Shown: positions 14,251-64,000 of the stretch, in pieces
Layout of the letters: each line of letters starts with the position of its first letter
Position numbering within the stretch: the stretch's first letter is position 1
Origin: Saprospiraceae bacterium
GTDB taxonomy: Bacteria > Bacteroidota > Bacteroidia > Chitinophagales > Saprospiraceae
Direction of reading: 5' to 3'
Assembly (NCBI GenBank): GCA_020848995.1
Contig: JADLHA010000041.1
Coordinates: forward strand, 33,418-97,417
Length of the DNA stretch: 64,000 nucleotides
Made by a program: the position numbers and the translations under genes
Notes under the pieces: generated by a model
What the model was told of the DNA's origin: nothing
The model's input: the letters and a program-made list of their open reading frames with translations, nothing else
The model's database searches: none

Positions 14251-14910
14251 ATGGTCAACCTGAATCAATATTTCAAACTCAGTGCACTGGCAAAGAGCTA
14301 TGGAGCTCGCCTGCTGGTTGTAACAAAATACCAAAGCCGTGAAGACATCCTGCAACTTTACGAATCAGGACACCGACTCTTTGGTGAAAATCGTGTGGAT
14401 GCCCTTCTCGAGCGAAAGGCGACGCTCCCTGCAGACATTGAATGGCACATGATTGGCAGTCTTCAAAAAAACAAGATCAAACAACTCGTTGAATGGATCT
14501 CCTGCATCCAATCAATAGACAGCCTTGGATTAGCTGATAAAGTCCATGAACATGCAAACCGCATCAACAGGAACACTACCGTTCTGTTTGAAGTTAAGAT
14601 TGCAGCAGAACCGAGCAAACACGGCTTTGAAGAAAGCGAACTCCAGAAATTATTGGATAACGGCCATTTCGACCTATATCCCTCAATGCGCCTAAGCGGT
14701 TTGATGGGCATGGCAAGTTTTACCAACGACCACAAACAAATCTCGACAGAGTTCGCTGGTCTGCGCAAACTTTATGACGCTCTGGCAGAACAATATAGCT
14801 GCTGTAAAGATTTCGACACCTTGTCGATGGGCATGTCAGGAGATTATGAACTCGCGCTGGAGCAAGGCTCAACGATGCTGCGCATTGGATCAATACTATT
14901 TCAAGCATAA
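14251..14910 (+). CDS. YggS/PROSC-family pyridoxal phosphate-binding protein
   Basis: LLVVTKYQSREDILQLYESGHRLFGENRVDALLERK, IEWHMIGSLQKNKIKQL, LSMGMSGDYELALEQGSTMLRIGS. Confidence 0.9.
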   Translation: MVNLNQYFKLSALAKSYGARLLVVTKYQSREDILQLYESGHRLFGENRVDALLERKATLPADIEWHMIGSLQKNKIKQLVEWISCIQSIDSLGLADKVHEHANRINRNTTVLFEVKIAAEPSKHGFEESELQKLLDNGHFDLYPSMRLSGLMGMASFTNDHKQISTEFAGLRKLYDALAEQYSCCKDFDTLSMGMSGDYELALEQGSTMLRIGSILFQA

Positions 14911-15070
14911 GGGCACTTCTAAGAACTCCATTCTGATGCCAGAATGAAAAGGGCTGCCTCCCTCCACTCCCTGTTGATGCCAGAATGAAAAGGGCTTCCT
15001 CGCTAAATTCATTGAGCGCGTGAGCCTGTGCGGGCAAGCTGGCGCAAGAGGGGGGGGGGAAGTGCCCTTA
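14908..15070. mobile_element. Putative MITE, copy 1 (163 bp including flanking TA)
   Basis: TA-AGGGCACTTCT left end at 14908 and GAAGTGCCCT-TA right end at 15070 are inverted; internal 41-bp units CTCC..TGATGCCAGAATGAAAAGGGCTGCCTCCCTCCA; same family at ~44956 and ~63815. Confidence 0.75.
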
Positions 15071-16699
15071 AGGAACCAAGAACTTCAGTACCGTTTGCTT
15101 GCCCTTCCTGTCCACCGCACGAACAACATACATTCCACCAGCAAGGTTCGTGCAATGAGCAAAGTGCCCGGCGTTTGGCAACAGGCAACATACAGGCTTC
15201 CCGTCCAATCCATAAATCTCTGCTTTCACGACAGAGCTCGACGGATGAAATTCAATTTGGGACGATGCCGAATTGAAAATAATTTGTAAGCTGCTCTCTT
15301 CAGTCTGCTCCGCGTCTGTAGCTTCGCAAAGTTCCACTACACTAAAACTCAGCTCTTTTTGCCCCAATACGACGTCAGTCGAGATCAGGTCAAGATTTTT
15401 CGCTGACAAGCCCAGTTCTGAAATCCTCATAGTATCTTTAAAAACCTCGGAGCTGAGCGGAGTGGAGCATTTATGCTGAAACTGGATGTCATTTTCGATC
15501 AGTATGCAGTTTTGGAGAGGCATGCCTTCGGCAATGACCGCCGTCCAAAATCGAGATCCGGTACGCTCGTAGCAAACGGTAGAACTTCCCTTGCCCTCCG
15601 GTAAATCCAATCCCTTTTGATGCAAGCGGATGGCTTCAACGATCGCATTCGCGGAATTGATTTTAACCGTGACATAGCCCCGTTCTGCTAAAATAGAGGC
15701 GGGCGACTGCCCTCCGAAATAAAATGTGTTACCATCGACCAATCCGCTTTCAACGCGAATCGGCATGGTGTAATTGCGCCAGGTGCGTAAAGCGTAATTG
15801 ACATCAAACAACGTGACTAAAAGCTGTCCCGGCTCTGAACCTCCGAGTACAGCCTGCGAGAACAAATGCAGGTTGGCTCCATTTGCGCGAAGGTATGTCC
15901 AACCATACCGGTTACTGAAGCTCTGATTTGGCGCCAGCAGCTCCACCTTGCGCAATTTTCCCGGCATTCCATCCGGATCAAGGTCCATCAGCATCATTCG
16001 GTGGTAGTTGTCGCCACTTGTCTGAACGATTCCACCAATGGCTATTCTTCCTGAAGGATCAAAAGCAATCGCATGAGGGAATTCCGAATGGATCGGCCCC
16101 ACAGCGTTGTACAGGTATGCCCATTCAATTTGTTGTCCGTCGTATTCAAAAGCAACAACCTTGTCCTGTTTTCCGGAGAGGTAATCCACTTCTGTTCTTG
16201 CAAGGATGCAAAACCGGCCGCCTTCCAAAACAATATCAACGGCAACCAGAGGCTTGTCCGGATCAATCATCCGGCTGAAGAGCACAAAATTGGAAAAAGT
16301 GCCGAGTCGCACATTGTAAACAGCGAGGAAAGGGAAACGTCCACTTGCCGGATGGGAGTAGTTACCCAGCATCACCAGTTCGACCTCTCCGTTGCCAATC
16401 ATTTTGACCAATTCGAGGTCGCCGCCTGGAAGGTAGAGGTACATCGCCTTTTTTAGCGCTTCAGGCGTTGCAAATTGCGCGAGTATAATGCCGTTGTCAC
16501 TTGTTGTACGATCGGTAGCGTTCCAGGCAATGGACTTTATTCCGGGGCTGGTTCCAAGCCCCGAAGTTGAATGCATTGCAACTACGCGCAACAAGGTGTA
16601 ATTGGTATCTGTCAGGGTTATGAGGGAGTAGGATTGAGTTTGAGCTTCCCTAAGCCACAGCAAAATGCTCCCAATAATCAATAAGTACTGGTACTTCAT
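15068..16699 (-). CDS. Secreted protein with T9SS type A C-terminal sorting domain
   Basis: Signal-like N-terminus MKYQYLLIIGSILLWLREAQTQ from ATG 16699; C-terminus SSVVKAEIYGLDGKPV...GGMYVVRAVDRKGKQTVLKFLVP is T9SS CTD-like. Confidence 0.7.
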   Translation of the reverse strand: MKYQYLLIIGSILLWLREAQTQSYSLITLTDTNYTLLRVVAMHSTSGLGTSPGIKSIAWNATDRTTSDNGIILAQFATPEALKKAMYLYLPGGDLELVKMIGNGEVELVMLGNYSHPASGRFPFLAVYNVRLGTFSNFVLFSRMIDPDKPLVAVDIVLEGGRFCILARTEVDYLSGKQDKVVAFEYDGQQIEWAYLYNAVGPIHSEFPHAIAFDPSGRIAIGGIVQTSGDNYHRMMLMDLDPDGMPGKLRKVELLAPNQSFSNRYGWTYLRANGANLHLFSQAVLGGSEPGQLLVTLFDVNYALRTWRNYTMPIRVESGLVDGNTFYFGGQSPASILAERGYVTVKINSANAIVEAIRLHQKGLDLPEGKGSSTVCYERTGSRFWTAVIAEGMPLQNCILIENDIQFQHKCSTPLSSEVFKDTMRISELGLSAKNLDLISTDVVLGQKELSFSVVELCEATDAEQTEESSLQIIFNSASSQIEFHPSSSVVKAEIYGLDGKPVCCLLPNAGHFAHCTNLAGGMYVVRAVDRKGKQTVLKFLVP

Positions 16700-18963
16700 C
16701 GCTTTATCCATTTTTCGACCCAACGGTGGTGTCCGTCTGAAACGGTCACGAAGTAGACTCCTGGTGACAACCGTTGTGCTTCGGGTATTTCGGCAAACCC
16801 ACTCAGTGTGTAGGTGGTAGCTATACACTTGCCTGAAGCATCAAAAATTTGTATTGTATATTCAACCTCTTTAGCAAGATGAACAACAAGTGCCCCACCC
16901 GATGGATTGGGTGTTAATATAAAACGGGTGCATCGCTGCGGATTTTCCGATGCGGTCGGACCCAGCAGATCCGTCTTATAAAAAGAGATGCCGCCGCGGG
17001 CATTTCCGGTTACCATTTCGAGGACTCCGTCTGAGTCGATGTCTGCAAGGCTCAGCGTGATGCGTTCTCCTTCCTTCATAAGTCCGTAGTGTGGATTCAG
17101 CATTTCATAAGTGCCATCGGGATCCTGGGTTATTCCACCAATGCGCTTGACTTCGCCAAAAATGTTACCCGTAAATAGATTAAGGGCTCCCTGATATTGA
17201 TAAAATTCCGGACTGGAATAAACCTTTGAAGAAATGCCGTTTACGATAATGTTCCCAAGACAGTTTGTATTGGGTTCCTTAAAGTAATCCGGATCAAAAG
17301 CAGCCTCCTCTGGTGTGCCTTGATTCTGAAAATAATAAAAACTTCCGCAGGCCTTGCCGGATGGATCATTTGTGTTGAGTCGCGATCCACTGACAATATC
17401 CAGGCGTCCATCGCCATTGAGGTCGATGAGATATGGCGAACTGTAGGATTTTGCACTCAATTCCTGGTAGGGATACTCCGGCTTATTAAATTGAAAGGGC
17501 TTCCCTGCCCCGGCAGTATTTTCACAAAAGAAGAACTGACCCTGATTTTCGCCGACGAGCATGTCGAAGTCACCGTCGTTGTCGAGATCGCCAAATGCCG
17601 GAGTAAAAGAATGATGAGCATCTGCACTGAGGGCATAATCGTTAAACTCCAGGTAATTGCTGTCAGCCAAAGCAAATGCAGGTGTAGTTTCTGTCCCCAC
17701 GTTTTCAAAAAGGACCAGGCGCGCATCCCGCAAATTGGTACCGCGGATAAAGAACCCTTCCGTACCGACGATGAGGTCCATTTTTCCATCCTGGTTGAAG
17801 TCGACAAAGCAAGGGTCTGTTGCGGAGCCGAGGTCCATCATTTCGCCAACGAGAAAAGAGCGGGTATTCCGCTGAAATTTGGGAGCCGCCGCAGTACCCA
17901 CGTTCCGGTAATACCAAAGATTGTCGATATTTTCTGAAATGGATCGCTGGTTAGGAGCTACCAAAATATCTGTTAAGCCGTCGTGATCGACATCTGCTGA
18001 AAAAGCTGCGAGAAAAGTTGCGAGGTCGAGGGAATCGGAGTTGCCTGGCCAGTTAGTCTGCTGTTTATTCATATAAGGACGTTCCAGGCTGCCGGCGTTG
18101 AAAAGAGCGATCAAACCATTGTTGGTGAGGTCGCCAACCAGCAAATCCGGCAGACCATTTCCATCCAGGTCTTGCGACAGCAAAGTTGAACCGGAGTGCC
18201 TCAGCACCGGCATAGCATTGCGAAATGAAGCGCAACTATCTGGGCTGCCGCTCAGGGTAATCTCAGCGGTAAAGCCACTTTCTACAAAACCGCCAAAGCA
18301 ACGGTCTGCCAACACAAACGCCATGGTGTCATTTGAGAAAGCCCTTTCTTTGACGATGTTTTTAAAGAGACTTACCCGGTTATTTCCCGGTTCGAAAAGC
18401 AGTATGTCAAGATCGCCATCTCCATCGAGGTCCTCGATCACTGGTATGTCGGTAAAATCGATAGGGATTTGGGTCGTGTTGTTGCCGAGTGAGAAAAACA
18501 GCACCTTAAATGGCTTGCCCATGTCGAATTTTTCGAATTCCAGTCCGGCTTGTCCTCTTGAACCCCGGTAGAGTTCGATGCCGGGAATCCCTTCCGTATT
18601 GAAAGAACTGGCGAATAAATCGGCAATGCCGTCGCCATTGAAATCCCTGAAAAGAGTCCAGTCTTTAAGCCTCGGGAATTTAACCCGGTACTGGGGGCTG
18701 AATGCGTATTCCTGCAAGACCGGATCGTAACGAAAAGGCAACAGGACATCTCCTGCGCGGTCGAACAGGACCAAATCCTCCACAGCATCGCCATCGAGGT
18801 CGATGGTATTGACTTGTATGTTGTCTGCACCTCCTGTCGCCCCATAGCGAAGCACTCTGCCTTCACCATCGATCACGGGAATGGGGATCCAGGGAAGTCC
18901 CTGTGAAAATATGCCCACGCTCCATAGGAACGGGAGGATGGATGCCAAAATGATAACTCTCAT
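16696..18963 (-). CDS. FG-GAP/VCBS repeat secreted protein with T9SS sorting domain
   Basis: Repeated Ca-binding-like DLDGDGDLDILLFE, DFNGDGIADLFA, DLNGDGRLDIVSG, DIDSDGVLEMVTG; C-terminal CTD (LTPNPSGGALVVHLAKEVEYTIQIFDASGKCIATT...). Confidence 0.85.
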   Translation of the reverse strand: MRVIILASILPFLWSVGIFSQGLPWIPIPVIDGEGRVLRYGATGGADNIQVNTIDLDGDAVEDLVLFDRAGDVLLPFRYDPVLQEYAFSPQYRVKFPRLKDWTLFRDFNGDGIADLFASSFNTEGIPGIELYRGSRGQAGLEFEKFDMGKPFKVLFFSLGNNTTQIPIDFTDIPVIEDLDGDGDLDILLFEPGNNRVSLFKNIVKERAFSNDTMAFVLADRCFGGFVESGFTAEITLSGSPDSCASFRNAMPVLRHSGSTLLSQDLDGNGLPDLLVGDLTNNGLIALFNAGSLERPYMNKQQTNWPGNSDSLDLATFLAAFSADVDHDGLTDILVAPNQRSISENIDNLWYYRNVGTAAAPKFQRNTRSFLVGEMMDLGSATDPCFVDFNQDGKMDLIVGTEGFFIRGTNLRDARLVLFENVGTETTPAFALADSNYLEFNDYALSADAHHSFTPAFGDLDNDGDFDMLVGENQGQFFFCENTAGAGKPFQFNKPEYPYQELSAKSYSSPYLIDLNGDGRLDIVSGSRLNTNDPSGKACGSFYYFQNQGTPEEAAFDPDYFKEPNTNCLGNIIVNGISSKVYSSPEFYQYQGALNLFTGNIFGEVKRIGGITQDPDGTYEMLNPHYGLMKEGERITLSLADIDSDGVLEMVTGNARGGISFYKTDLLGPTASENPQRCTRFILTPNPSGGALVVHLAKEVEYTIQIFDASGKCIATTYTLSGFAEIPEAQRLSPGVYFVTVSDGHHRWVEKWIKR

Positions 18964-44955: not shown

Positions 44956-45187
44956 TAAGGGCACTTCTACCCCCCCCTGCTGCGCCAGCCAGCCCGCACA
45001 GGCTCACGCGCTCAATGAATTTAGCTTCACAATCCTTCGTTGCAGCTCAGTCAGTTATTGCTCCACATAGCTTCCTTCGCTGCGCCTCGGCTTGTTTTGC
45101 TAAATTCATTCTGTCATCAACAGGGAGAGGAGGGAGGCAGCCCTTTTCATTCTGGCATCAACAGGGAGTTTTTAGAAGTGCCCCTAA
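44956..45187. mobile_element. Putative MITE, copy 2 (longest complete copy; inverted relative to copy 1)
   Basis: TA-AGGGCACTTCT at 44956-44968 and AGAAGTGCCCC-TA at 45174-45186; contains the 41-bp-unit sequence on the reverse strand plus an inner segment with 12-bp inverted repeats. Confidence 0.72.
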
Positions 45188-56665: not shown

Positions 56666-57859
56666 ATGTTCAGGATAGCGGGGCGCATTGCCCAAATGGA
56701 AGAGTCGGCCACCCTGCGGATGGCCCAGCGCGCCCGGCAGATGCGGCAAAGCGGTGCAGATGTAATCAACCTGAGTCTTGGAGAACCCGATTTTGATACT
56801 CCTGAATTCATAAAAGAGGCGGCGATCAAAAGCATGCGGGCCGGGGCCACGAAGTACACCCCGGTTGCCGGTACCCAGGAACTGCGCGAAGCCATTCGCG
56901 ATAAATTTTTGCGCGACAACAACATCTCCTATTCCGTCGATGAGCTCATGGTTTCCTGTGGGGCTAAGCAGTGTTTCGCCAACTTGTGCTTTGCCTTGCT
57001 GGAAGAGGGGGACGAAGCCGTCATGTTGGCTCCCTACTGGGTGAGCTATTACGAAATCGTAAAACTGGCCGGAGCTCAACCCGTTGTCGTCCAATCTGCT
57101 GTAGAAAATAATTTCAAACCCAATCTCGAAGAACTTCGCAAGGCTTTAAGCTCAAGGACCAAGTTATTTGTCTTTTCTACACCCTGCAACCCAACGGGAA
57201 CGGTATTTTCTGAAGGGGATCTCCGGGGTATGGCAGAATTGTTTGCCGAGTTCCCGGACGTATTGGTAATATCCGATGAGATTTACGAATATATCCAGTT
57301 TGGCACAAAACACTTCAGCATCGCATCACTTCCTGGAATGAAAGAACGCTGTGCCACCATCAACGGATTTTCCAAAGGGTTTGCCATGACGGGCTGGCGA
57401 TTGGGATACATGGGAGCACCGAAGCCCATCATCGATGCCTGCGTAAAAATTCAGGGCCAGTTCACCTCCGGTGCCGCAAGTTTCAGCCAGGAAGCGGCGA
57501 CGCTCGCCCTGCGCTCCGACCTTACGGAGACCTTCAAAATGCGCGACGCCTATGCGCGCAGACGGGACCACCTGCTCGCACAACTCAAGAACATTCCCGG
57601 ATTCAGGCTCAATCAACCTCAAGGGGCGTTCTACATTTTGCCCGAGGTGAGCGACTATTTTGGGAAACGACATAAAGACCTGCTCATCAAGGACGCGGAA
57701 GATTTTGCACAGTTCCTGCTGGCAGAAGCACACGTCGCTGTAGTCAATGGCATCGCATTTGGTGCTCCCCAATGCATACGCATTTCCTATTCCATATCGG
57801 AAGCGCGAATAACCGAAGCGGTCGAACGCATCCGAAGAGCACTTGCGCTGTTGCACTGA
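56666..57859 (+). CDS. Pyridoxal phosphate-dependent aminotransferase (aspartate aminotransferase-like, class I)
   Basis: GADVINLSLGEPDFDTPEFIKEAA, FSTPCNPTGTVFSEGDL, TINGFSKGFAMTGWRLGYMGAP. Start ATG 56666. Confidence 0.93.
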   Translation: MFRIAGRIAQMEESATLRMAQRARQMRQSGADVINLSLGEPDFDTPEFIKEAAIKSMRAGATKYTPVAGTQELREAIRDKFLRDNNISYSVDELMVSCGAKQCFANLCFALLEEGDEAVMLAPYWVSYYEIVKLAGAQPVVVQSAVENNFKPNLEELRKALSSRTKLFVFSTPCNPTGTVFSEGDLRGMAELFAEFPDVLVISDEIYEYIQFGTKHFSIASLPGMKERCATINGFSKGFAMTGWRLGYMGAPKPIIDACVKIQGQFTSGAASFSQEAATLALRSDLTETFKMRDAYARRRDHLLAQLKNIPGFRLNQPQGAFYILPEVSDYFGKRHKDLLIKDAEDFAQFLLAEAHVAVVNGIAFGAPQCIRISYSISEARITEAVERIRRALALLH

Positions 57860-57865
57860 TCTTTA

Positions 57866-58015
57866 TACAGGGAACTTCGAATAACTCTCCTTTGCACGCC
57901 AGTCTGCTTTCCTGAGTTCATGTGCTCAGTGAATTTGGCTTCACAACGCTTTGTCACAGCTCAATCAGTTATCGATCCATATGGCTTCCTTCAAAGCGCC
58001 CAGCCTCATTGATTC
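57866..58015. mobile_element. Decayed MITE copy 4
   Basis: AGGGAACTTC then GTGCTCAGTGAATTTGGCTTCACAACGCTTTGTCACAGCTCAATCAGTTATCGATCCATATGGCTTCCTTC aligns with copy 2 GCGCTCAATGAATTTAGCTTCACAATCCTTCGTTGCAGCTCAGTCAGTTATTGCTCCACATAGCTTCCTTC. Confidence 0.65.
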
Positions 58016-58104
58016 ACAGGGGCCTTTGCAAGTCTCTATGCTTAGTTTTCGGACAAAGGAAGACACCCTTCCATGAGCGTCGGGATTGAGTGTCAGGGTG
58101 GTTG

Positions 58105-63814: not shown

Positions 63815-64000
63815 TAACGGCAATTCTAAAAACTCCATTTTGATGCCAGAATGAAAAGGGCTGCCTCCCTCCACTCCCTGTTGATGCCAGAATGAAAAGG
63901 GCTGCCTCCCTCCACTCCCTGTTGATGCCAGAATGAAAAGGGCTGCCTCCCTCCACTCCCTGTTGATGCCAGAATGAATTTAGCAAAACAAGCCGAGGCG
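63815..64000. mobile_element. Putative MITE, copy 3 (truncated by window edge)
   Basis: Left end TA-ACGGCAATTCT (two mismatches to AGGGCACTTCT), then at least three 41-bp units and GAATGAATTTAGCAAAACAAGCCGAGGCG matching copy 2 (reverse complement). Confidence 0.7.
63833..63974 (+). repeat. 41-bp tandem repeat array inside MITE copy 3
   Basis: CTCC(CTG/ATT)TTGATGCCAGAATGAAAAGGGCTGCCTCCCTCCA at 63833, 63874, 63915, plus a partial unit at 63956. Confidence 0.9.

Follow-up and report, generated by a model that had tools for sequence, protein, structure and literature searches.

Two convergent genes of a Saprospiraceae bacterium are parted by a short element that is very probably a non-autonomous MITE whose ends are of IS5-family type and which entered a 4-bp overlap (TTAA or TTAG) of their stop codons. 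The element belongs to a dispersed family, its site is empty in the sister genome Bin_50R, other copies are flanked by 4-bp repeats, and an IS5-type transposase lies between the same ends elsewhere. An IS5-like DDE transposase would have cut a TNNA target with a 4-bp stagger, and repair would then have duplicated the four target bases, leaving one copy on each side of the element. The yggS stop would survive in the left copy and that of the convergent gene in the right one, so that neither protein would be altered. We infer the acting transposase, the order of events and a later drift at base 14907.

The insertion locus

The window (the whole 64,000-nucleotide stretch of DNA that was analysed) contains a YggS-family (PLP-binding) gene at 14251..14910 (+), which encodes 219 aa ending ...FQA*, and a convergent gene at 15068..16828 (-), whose product has a T9SS-type tail at its C-terminus and ends ...KFLVP*; both family labels are those of the original prediction. 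The yggS gene stops with TAA at 14908-14910 and the convergent gene with TAA at 15070-15068 (-). The letters at the left edge (...TTTCAAGCATAAGGGCACTTC) had been read as TA at 14908-14909 with the inverted repeat starting at 14910, and those at the right edge (...GAAGTGCCCTTAAGGAACC) as an inverted repeat running to 15068, followed by TA at 15069-15070. The letters and the position of both stops at the element edges were confirmed in the window sequence. A refined boundary GGGC...GCCC at 14911-15067, with flanks ATAA / TTAA, is better than the earlier one. The element proper would then be 157 bp long (14911..15067, GGGCACTTCT...GAAGTGCCC). The left target copy, ATAA at 14907..14910, is one base off TTAA and contains the yggS TAA stop, and the right copy, TTAA at 15068..15071, contains that of the convergent gene (TTA, read as TAA on the minus strand). 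Given a 4-bp duplication, each stop is part of a target copy and not of the element, and the idea that the element supplied both stops is not supported. Later, freed from the constraint of the other gene, the left copy would have mutated from its original TTAA; the resulting ATAA is silent in yggS, whose last codon becomes GCA in place of GCT, both coding for Ala.

The left terminal inverted repeat lies at 14911..14929 (+, GGGCACTTCTAAGAACTCC), and the right one at 15049..15067 (-) is decayed beside a run of ten G (GGGGGGGGGGAAGTGCCC). This run, at 15050-15059 within the right end, is a possible sequencing or slippage site. Between the ends, the left module at about 14930..14995 (+; module edges approximate) retains parts of two 41-bp units (GATGCCAGAATGAAAAGGGCTGCCTCCCTCCACTCCCTGTT). 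The right module has lost its centre, and the window element is a short derivative of its family. A terminator scan of 14700-15300 found no terminator-like site within the element, and an Rfam scan of four loci holding family copies gave one sub-threshold chance match and nothing else. RNA folding gave z-scores of -4.4 and -3.0, as the inverted ends would lead one to expect, and these were not read as function.

The empty site in a sister genome

Saprospiraceae bacterium Bin_50R (JABARE01; G006), of the same genus, is the single close relative showing an empty site. The locus is syntenic, with 80-84% identity across nearly the whole window. Both genes are present and the element is absent, with exactly one junction, CTTTCAATCTTAGGGAACAAAG, at the site TC[TTAG]GG. 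The yggS orthologue is 73% identical and ends ...FQS* with the stop TAG, and the orthologue of the convergent gene is about 80% identical and ends ...VP*; within TTAG, the yggS TAG overlaps the stop codon of that second gene (TTA, read as TAA on the minus strand). Since the empty site already has overlapping stops, the element is genuinely inserted, and its target was a pair of stops that overlapped. The original prediction of an overlapping convergent pair with a single junction is therefore borne out, but the site is TTAG, and the predicted ancestral end ...VPYA* is not supported by Bin_50R, which has ...VP* with a TAA that overlaps the yggS TAG. A second empty site was found as well: the sequence CGCAAACC[TTGA]element[TTGA]ATTCC of this genome corresponds to CGCAAACC[ATGA]ACGCC in Bin_50R, again in a stop codon.

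A family of dispersed elements

A BLAST search with the 163-bp sequence gave 90 matches in this 3.14-Mb genome, which argue against chance, and 110 in Bin_50R. The 20-nt end AGGGCACTTCTAAAAACYCC (<=1 mismatch) occurs 50 times in this genome (reversed control 0) and 18 times in Bin_50R, with one match (G038) among 39 other genomes (reversed control 0). Family copies are best fitted by the boundary GGGCACTTCT...AGAAGTGCCC and a duplicated 4-bp target of consensus TNNA. A full copy is about 228 bp long, and intact copies range from 97 to 1089 bp. Terminal inverted repeats, many dispersed copies, a target duplication and an empty site in a relative are thus all present, and a transposase gene is absent inside, the 97-1089 bp copies being too short or too repetitive for one. 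The proposal of a MITE-like insertion holds on these grounds, as a dispersed inverted-repeat family with flanking duplications.

The family interior consists of a 41-bp unit forming variable arrays, and copies in Bin_50R also have a 148-bp right-hand unit with up to 5.8 repeats. In the 1,089-bp copy of Bin_50R (G006:C5:48430-49518, L178), the inverted ends enclose 4.4 repeats of the 41-bp unit and 5.8 of the 148-bp unit. The window contains two further copies. One lies at 44959..45183 with flanks TTAA / CTAA; the other, at 63815..64000 (+), has a left end and a 41-bp array (63832-63978) and is cut by the contig end. By hand count, roughly one in four of the assembly's 104 contig ends lies in a family copy, which suggests arrays too long to assemble. 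A stretch at 57850-58100 of the window, missing from Bin_50R at the same place, looks like an old, decayed family copy (AGGGAACTTCGAATAACTC...). At another locus, C18:29800-31300 of this genome (L049) and C25 of Bin_50R (L190) are 98.9% identical over 1.5 kb, with an element copy that is 100% identical, compared with about 80-87% identity at other compared loci; this near-identity reflects either recent transfer or a mis-binned contig. The viral contigs searched for the family end gave no match, and a literature search with the letters of the inverted repeat found no paper.

IS5-type ends and the candidate mobiliser

A scan of GTDB genomes for the family end returned 34 stretches from many phyla. 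Short elements with the 20-nt family end at their borders occur in MAGs (L193-L225) of Alphaproteobacteria, Spirochaetaceae, Campylobacterales, Nitrosomonas, Ignavibacteria and others. In two Tannerella MAGs (L217 and L225), elements of 1.26 and 1.31 kb between family-type ends encode IS5-family transposases (NF033581 at 153 and 210 bits; PF01609, PF05598) and are flanked by the 4-bp repeats TATA/TATA and TTCA/TTCA. The flanks of an IS1168-family copy on a Bacteroides plasmid are ATTA/ATTA. The ends of the family are therefore common to insertion sequences with an IS5-family transposase (L217, L225), and its duplication length equals theirs, 4 bp at L217, L225, L235 and the IS1168 copy. Compared with the window element, the Tannerella NF033581-type IS5 copies have the full end in common and the IS1168 copy has a related left end (GGGGACTTCTATAAA), but both kinds of element encode a transposase and the window element does not.

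In this genome we found no IS5_4, DDE_Tnp_1 (PF01609) or DDE_3 (PF13358) gene, nor a match to the Tannerella transposase, so the mobiliser is assigned by the ends. The transposase that acted here was presumably lost, is unassembled or is not among the known ones. Bin_50R retains a 62-residue transposase remnant. Also in Bin_50R, tandem repeats of about 138 bp, broken by an N run, adjoin a family copy and an IS630-type remnant (L171:506-916).

Length of the target duplication and alternative origins

Because pair lists allowing four mismatches include chance pairs, the count was restricted to copies whose duplication had no more than one mismatch. Exact 4-bp repeats flank 26 family copies (by hand count TAAA 8, TTTA 6, TTAA 6, TTAT 2, TGTA 2, TTGA 1 and TCTA 1). 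TA is not central in 18 of these (for example TAAA, TTTA, TTGA, TGTA and TCTA), the very kind of finding that the original prediction had named as speaking against its TA-only targeting with TA duplication, and that claim falls. Its assignment to IS630/Tc1-mariner fares no better, given that PF13358 is absent from this genome and that such ends are carried by IS5-family elements. TA does stand on both sides of the window copy, and the IS630-type remnant of Bin_50R adjoins a family copy; however, the transposase side of this remnant lacks an end matching the family inverted repeat, there is no DDE_3 gene here, and sites such as TTTA, TAAA, TTGA and TGTA contradict a TA target. We consider TA-specific insertion by an IS630/Tc1-mariner transposase highly improbable. 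Just as improbable is an ancestral intergenic structure that was lost in Bin_50R: the empty site is known from one close relative only, but the family is dispersed, has flanking duplications and is matched by precise single-copy junctions at two sites of Bin_50R.

An unlikely, though less remote, alternative is that the element includes the terminal A/T and duplicates only 2 bp of a TNNA-like target, here TA, the A of the element completing each stop as the original prediction had it; an ancestral site GCATAAGG (A, not T, before TA) and a VPYA end would match it. The window copy has an exact 2-bp repeat, as do 30 of the 53 intact copies where shuffling predicts 11 (TA in 7 of the 30), and nearly all copies have A...T ends. 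Yet T at left position -3 and A at right position +3 are nearly universal across family copies; both are predicted by a 4-bp TNNA duplication around an element GGGC...GCCC, but would need an extra rule if only 2 bp were duplicated. Informative here are copies with an outermost base other than A/T, several of which repeat exactly over 4 bp (TTAT/TTAT twice in Bin_50R; CCTA, TATT and TTAT in other phyla), as does an Aliarcobacter IS5 element (ATAT), and the Tannerella elements and the IS1168-family copy also fit 4 bp. Some copies with non-A/T ends fail to match over 4 bp at the outer base, which we read as later mutation, and many older copies have no clear duplication. At the window copy the repeat is 3/4 (ATAA/TTAA), the inner TA and the last A matching, and here the duplication could have been shorter than 4 bp.

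Relation to known elements and to stop codons

The window element is of a known kind and ordinary within it. BrickBuilt and MITEPgRS/MITE464 are MITEs of Porphyromonas gingivalis with IS5-family-like ends and internal tandem arrays (PMC4596501). They have 10-20 copies each, with published ends GAGACC.../GAGACTGTTGCA (GAGACC/TGTTGCA-like); MITEPgRS has 41-nt repeats, and BrickBuilt makes short target duplications, of 4 bp at one checked site (PMC4596501). The present family resembles them as a Bacteroidota MITE with IS5-family-like ends and internal arrays (here 41 bp and 148 bp), but its ends are GGGCACTTCTAAAA (GGGCACTTCT) and not theirs; the 41-nt units are alike by length, and the 148-bp array forms a second module. 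MITEs of IS5 type that contain minisatellites, as described in Porphyromonas, thus also occur in Saprospiraceae, and the GGGCACTTCTAAAAA end is found in MAGs of many phyla. RUP of pneumococcus is a short non-coding repeat, proposed to be mobilised in trans by IS630-Spn1, with a TA target and IS630 ends (PMC2229807), in contrast to the TNNA target and IS5-type ends here. The BOX element of Streptococcus pneumoniae, a modular MITE-like repeat with ISSpn2 as its proposed partner, is described as encoding the stop of 36 annotated genes (PMC3049150). In the parts of that description consulted, BOX is like the present family in its association with gene stops and unlike it in sequence and host, and no case of two overlapping stops was noticed there.

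The locus would be a clean example of a mobile element entering a gene-dense genome at no cost, in which the duplication copies a shared stop and parts overlapping genes. More tentatively, the family as a whole may favour stop codons: a TNNA target with a 4-bp duplication would often overlap TAA or TGA and leave the protein unchanged, and a TTAA shared by a convergent pair would be silent for two genes. If so, each insertion of the latter kind would part two end-sharing genes and let each evolve separately. Of 39 non-coding insertions, 8 overlapped a preserved stop, where TNNA sites would lead one to expect 3.5 (P ~0.004); this count is suggestive only, as it used rough ORF calls and a small sample and was made after the pattern had been seen. 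Around the window locus itself, the 1.2 kb to each side hold no further non-coding TNNA site, and the expected fraction there is 1.0.
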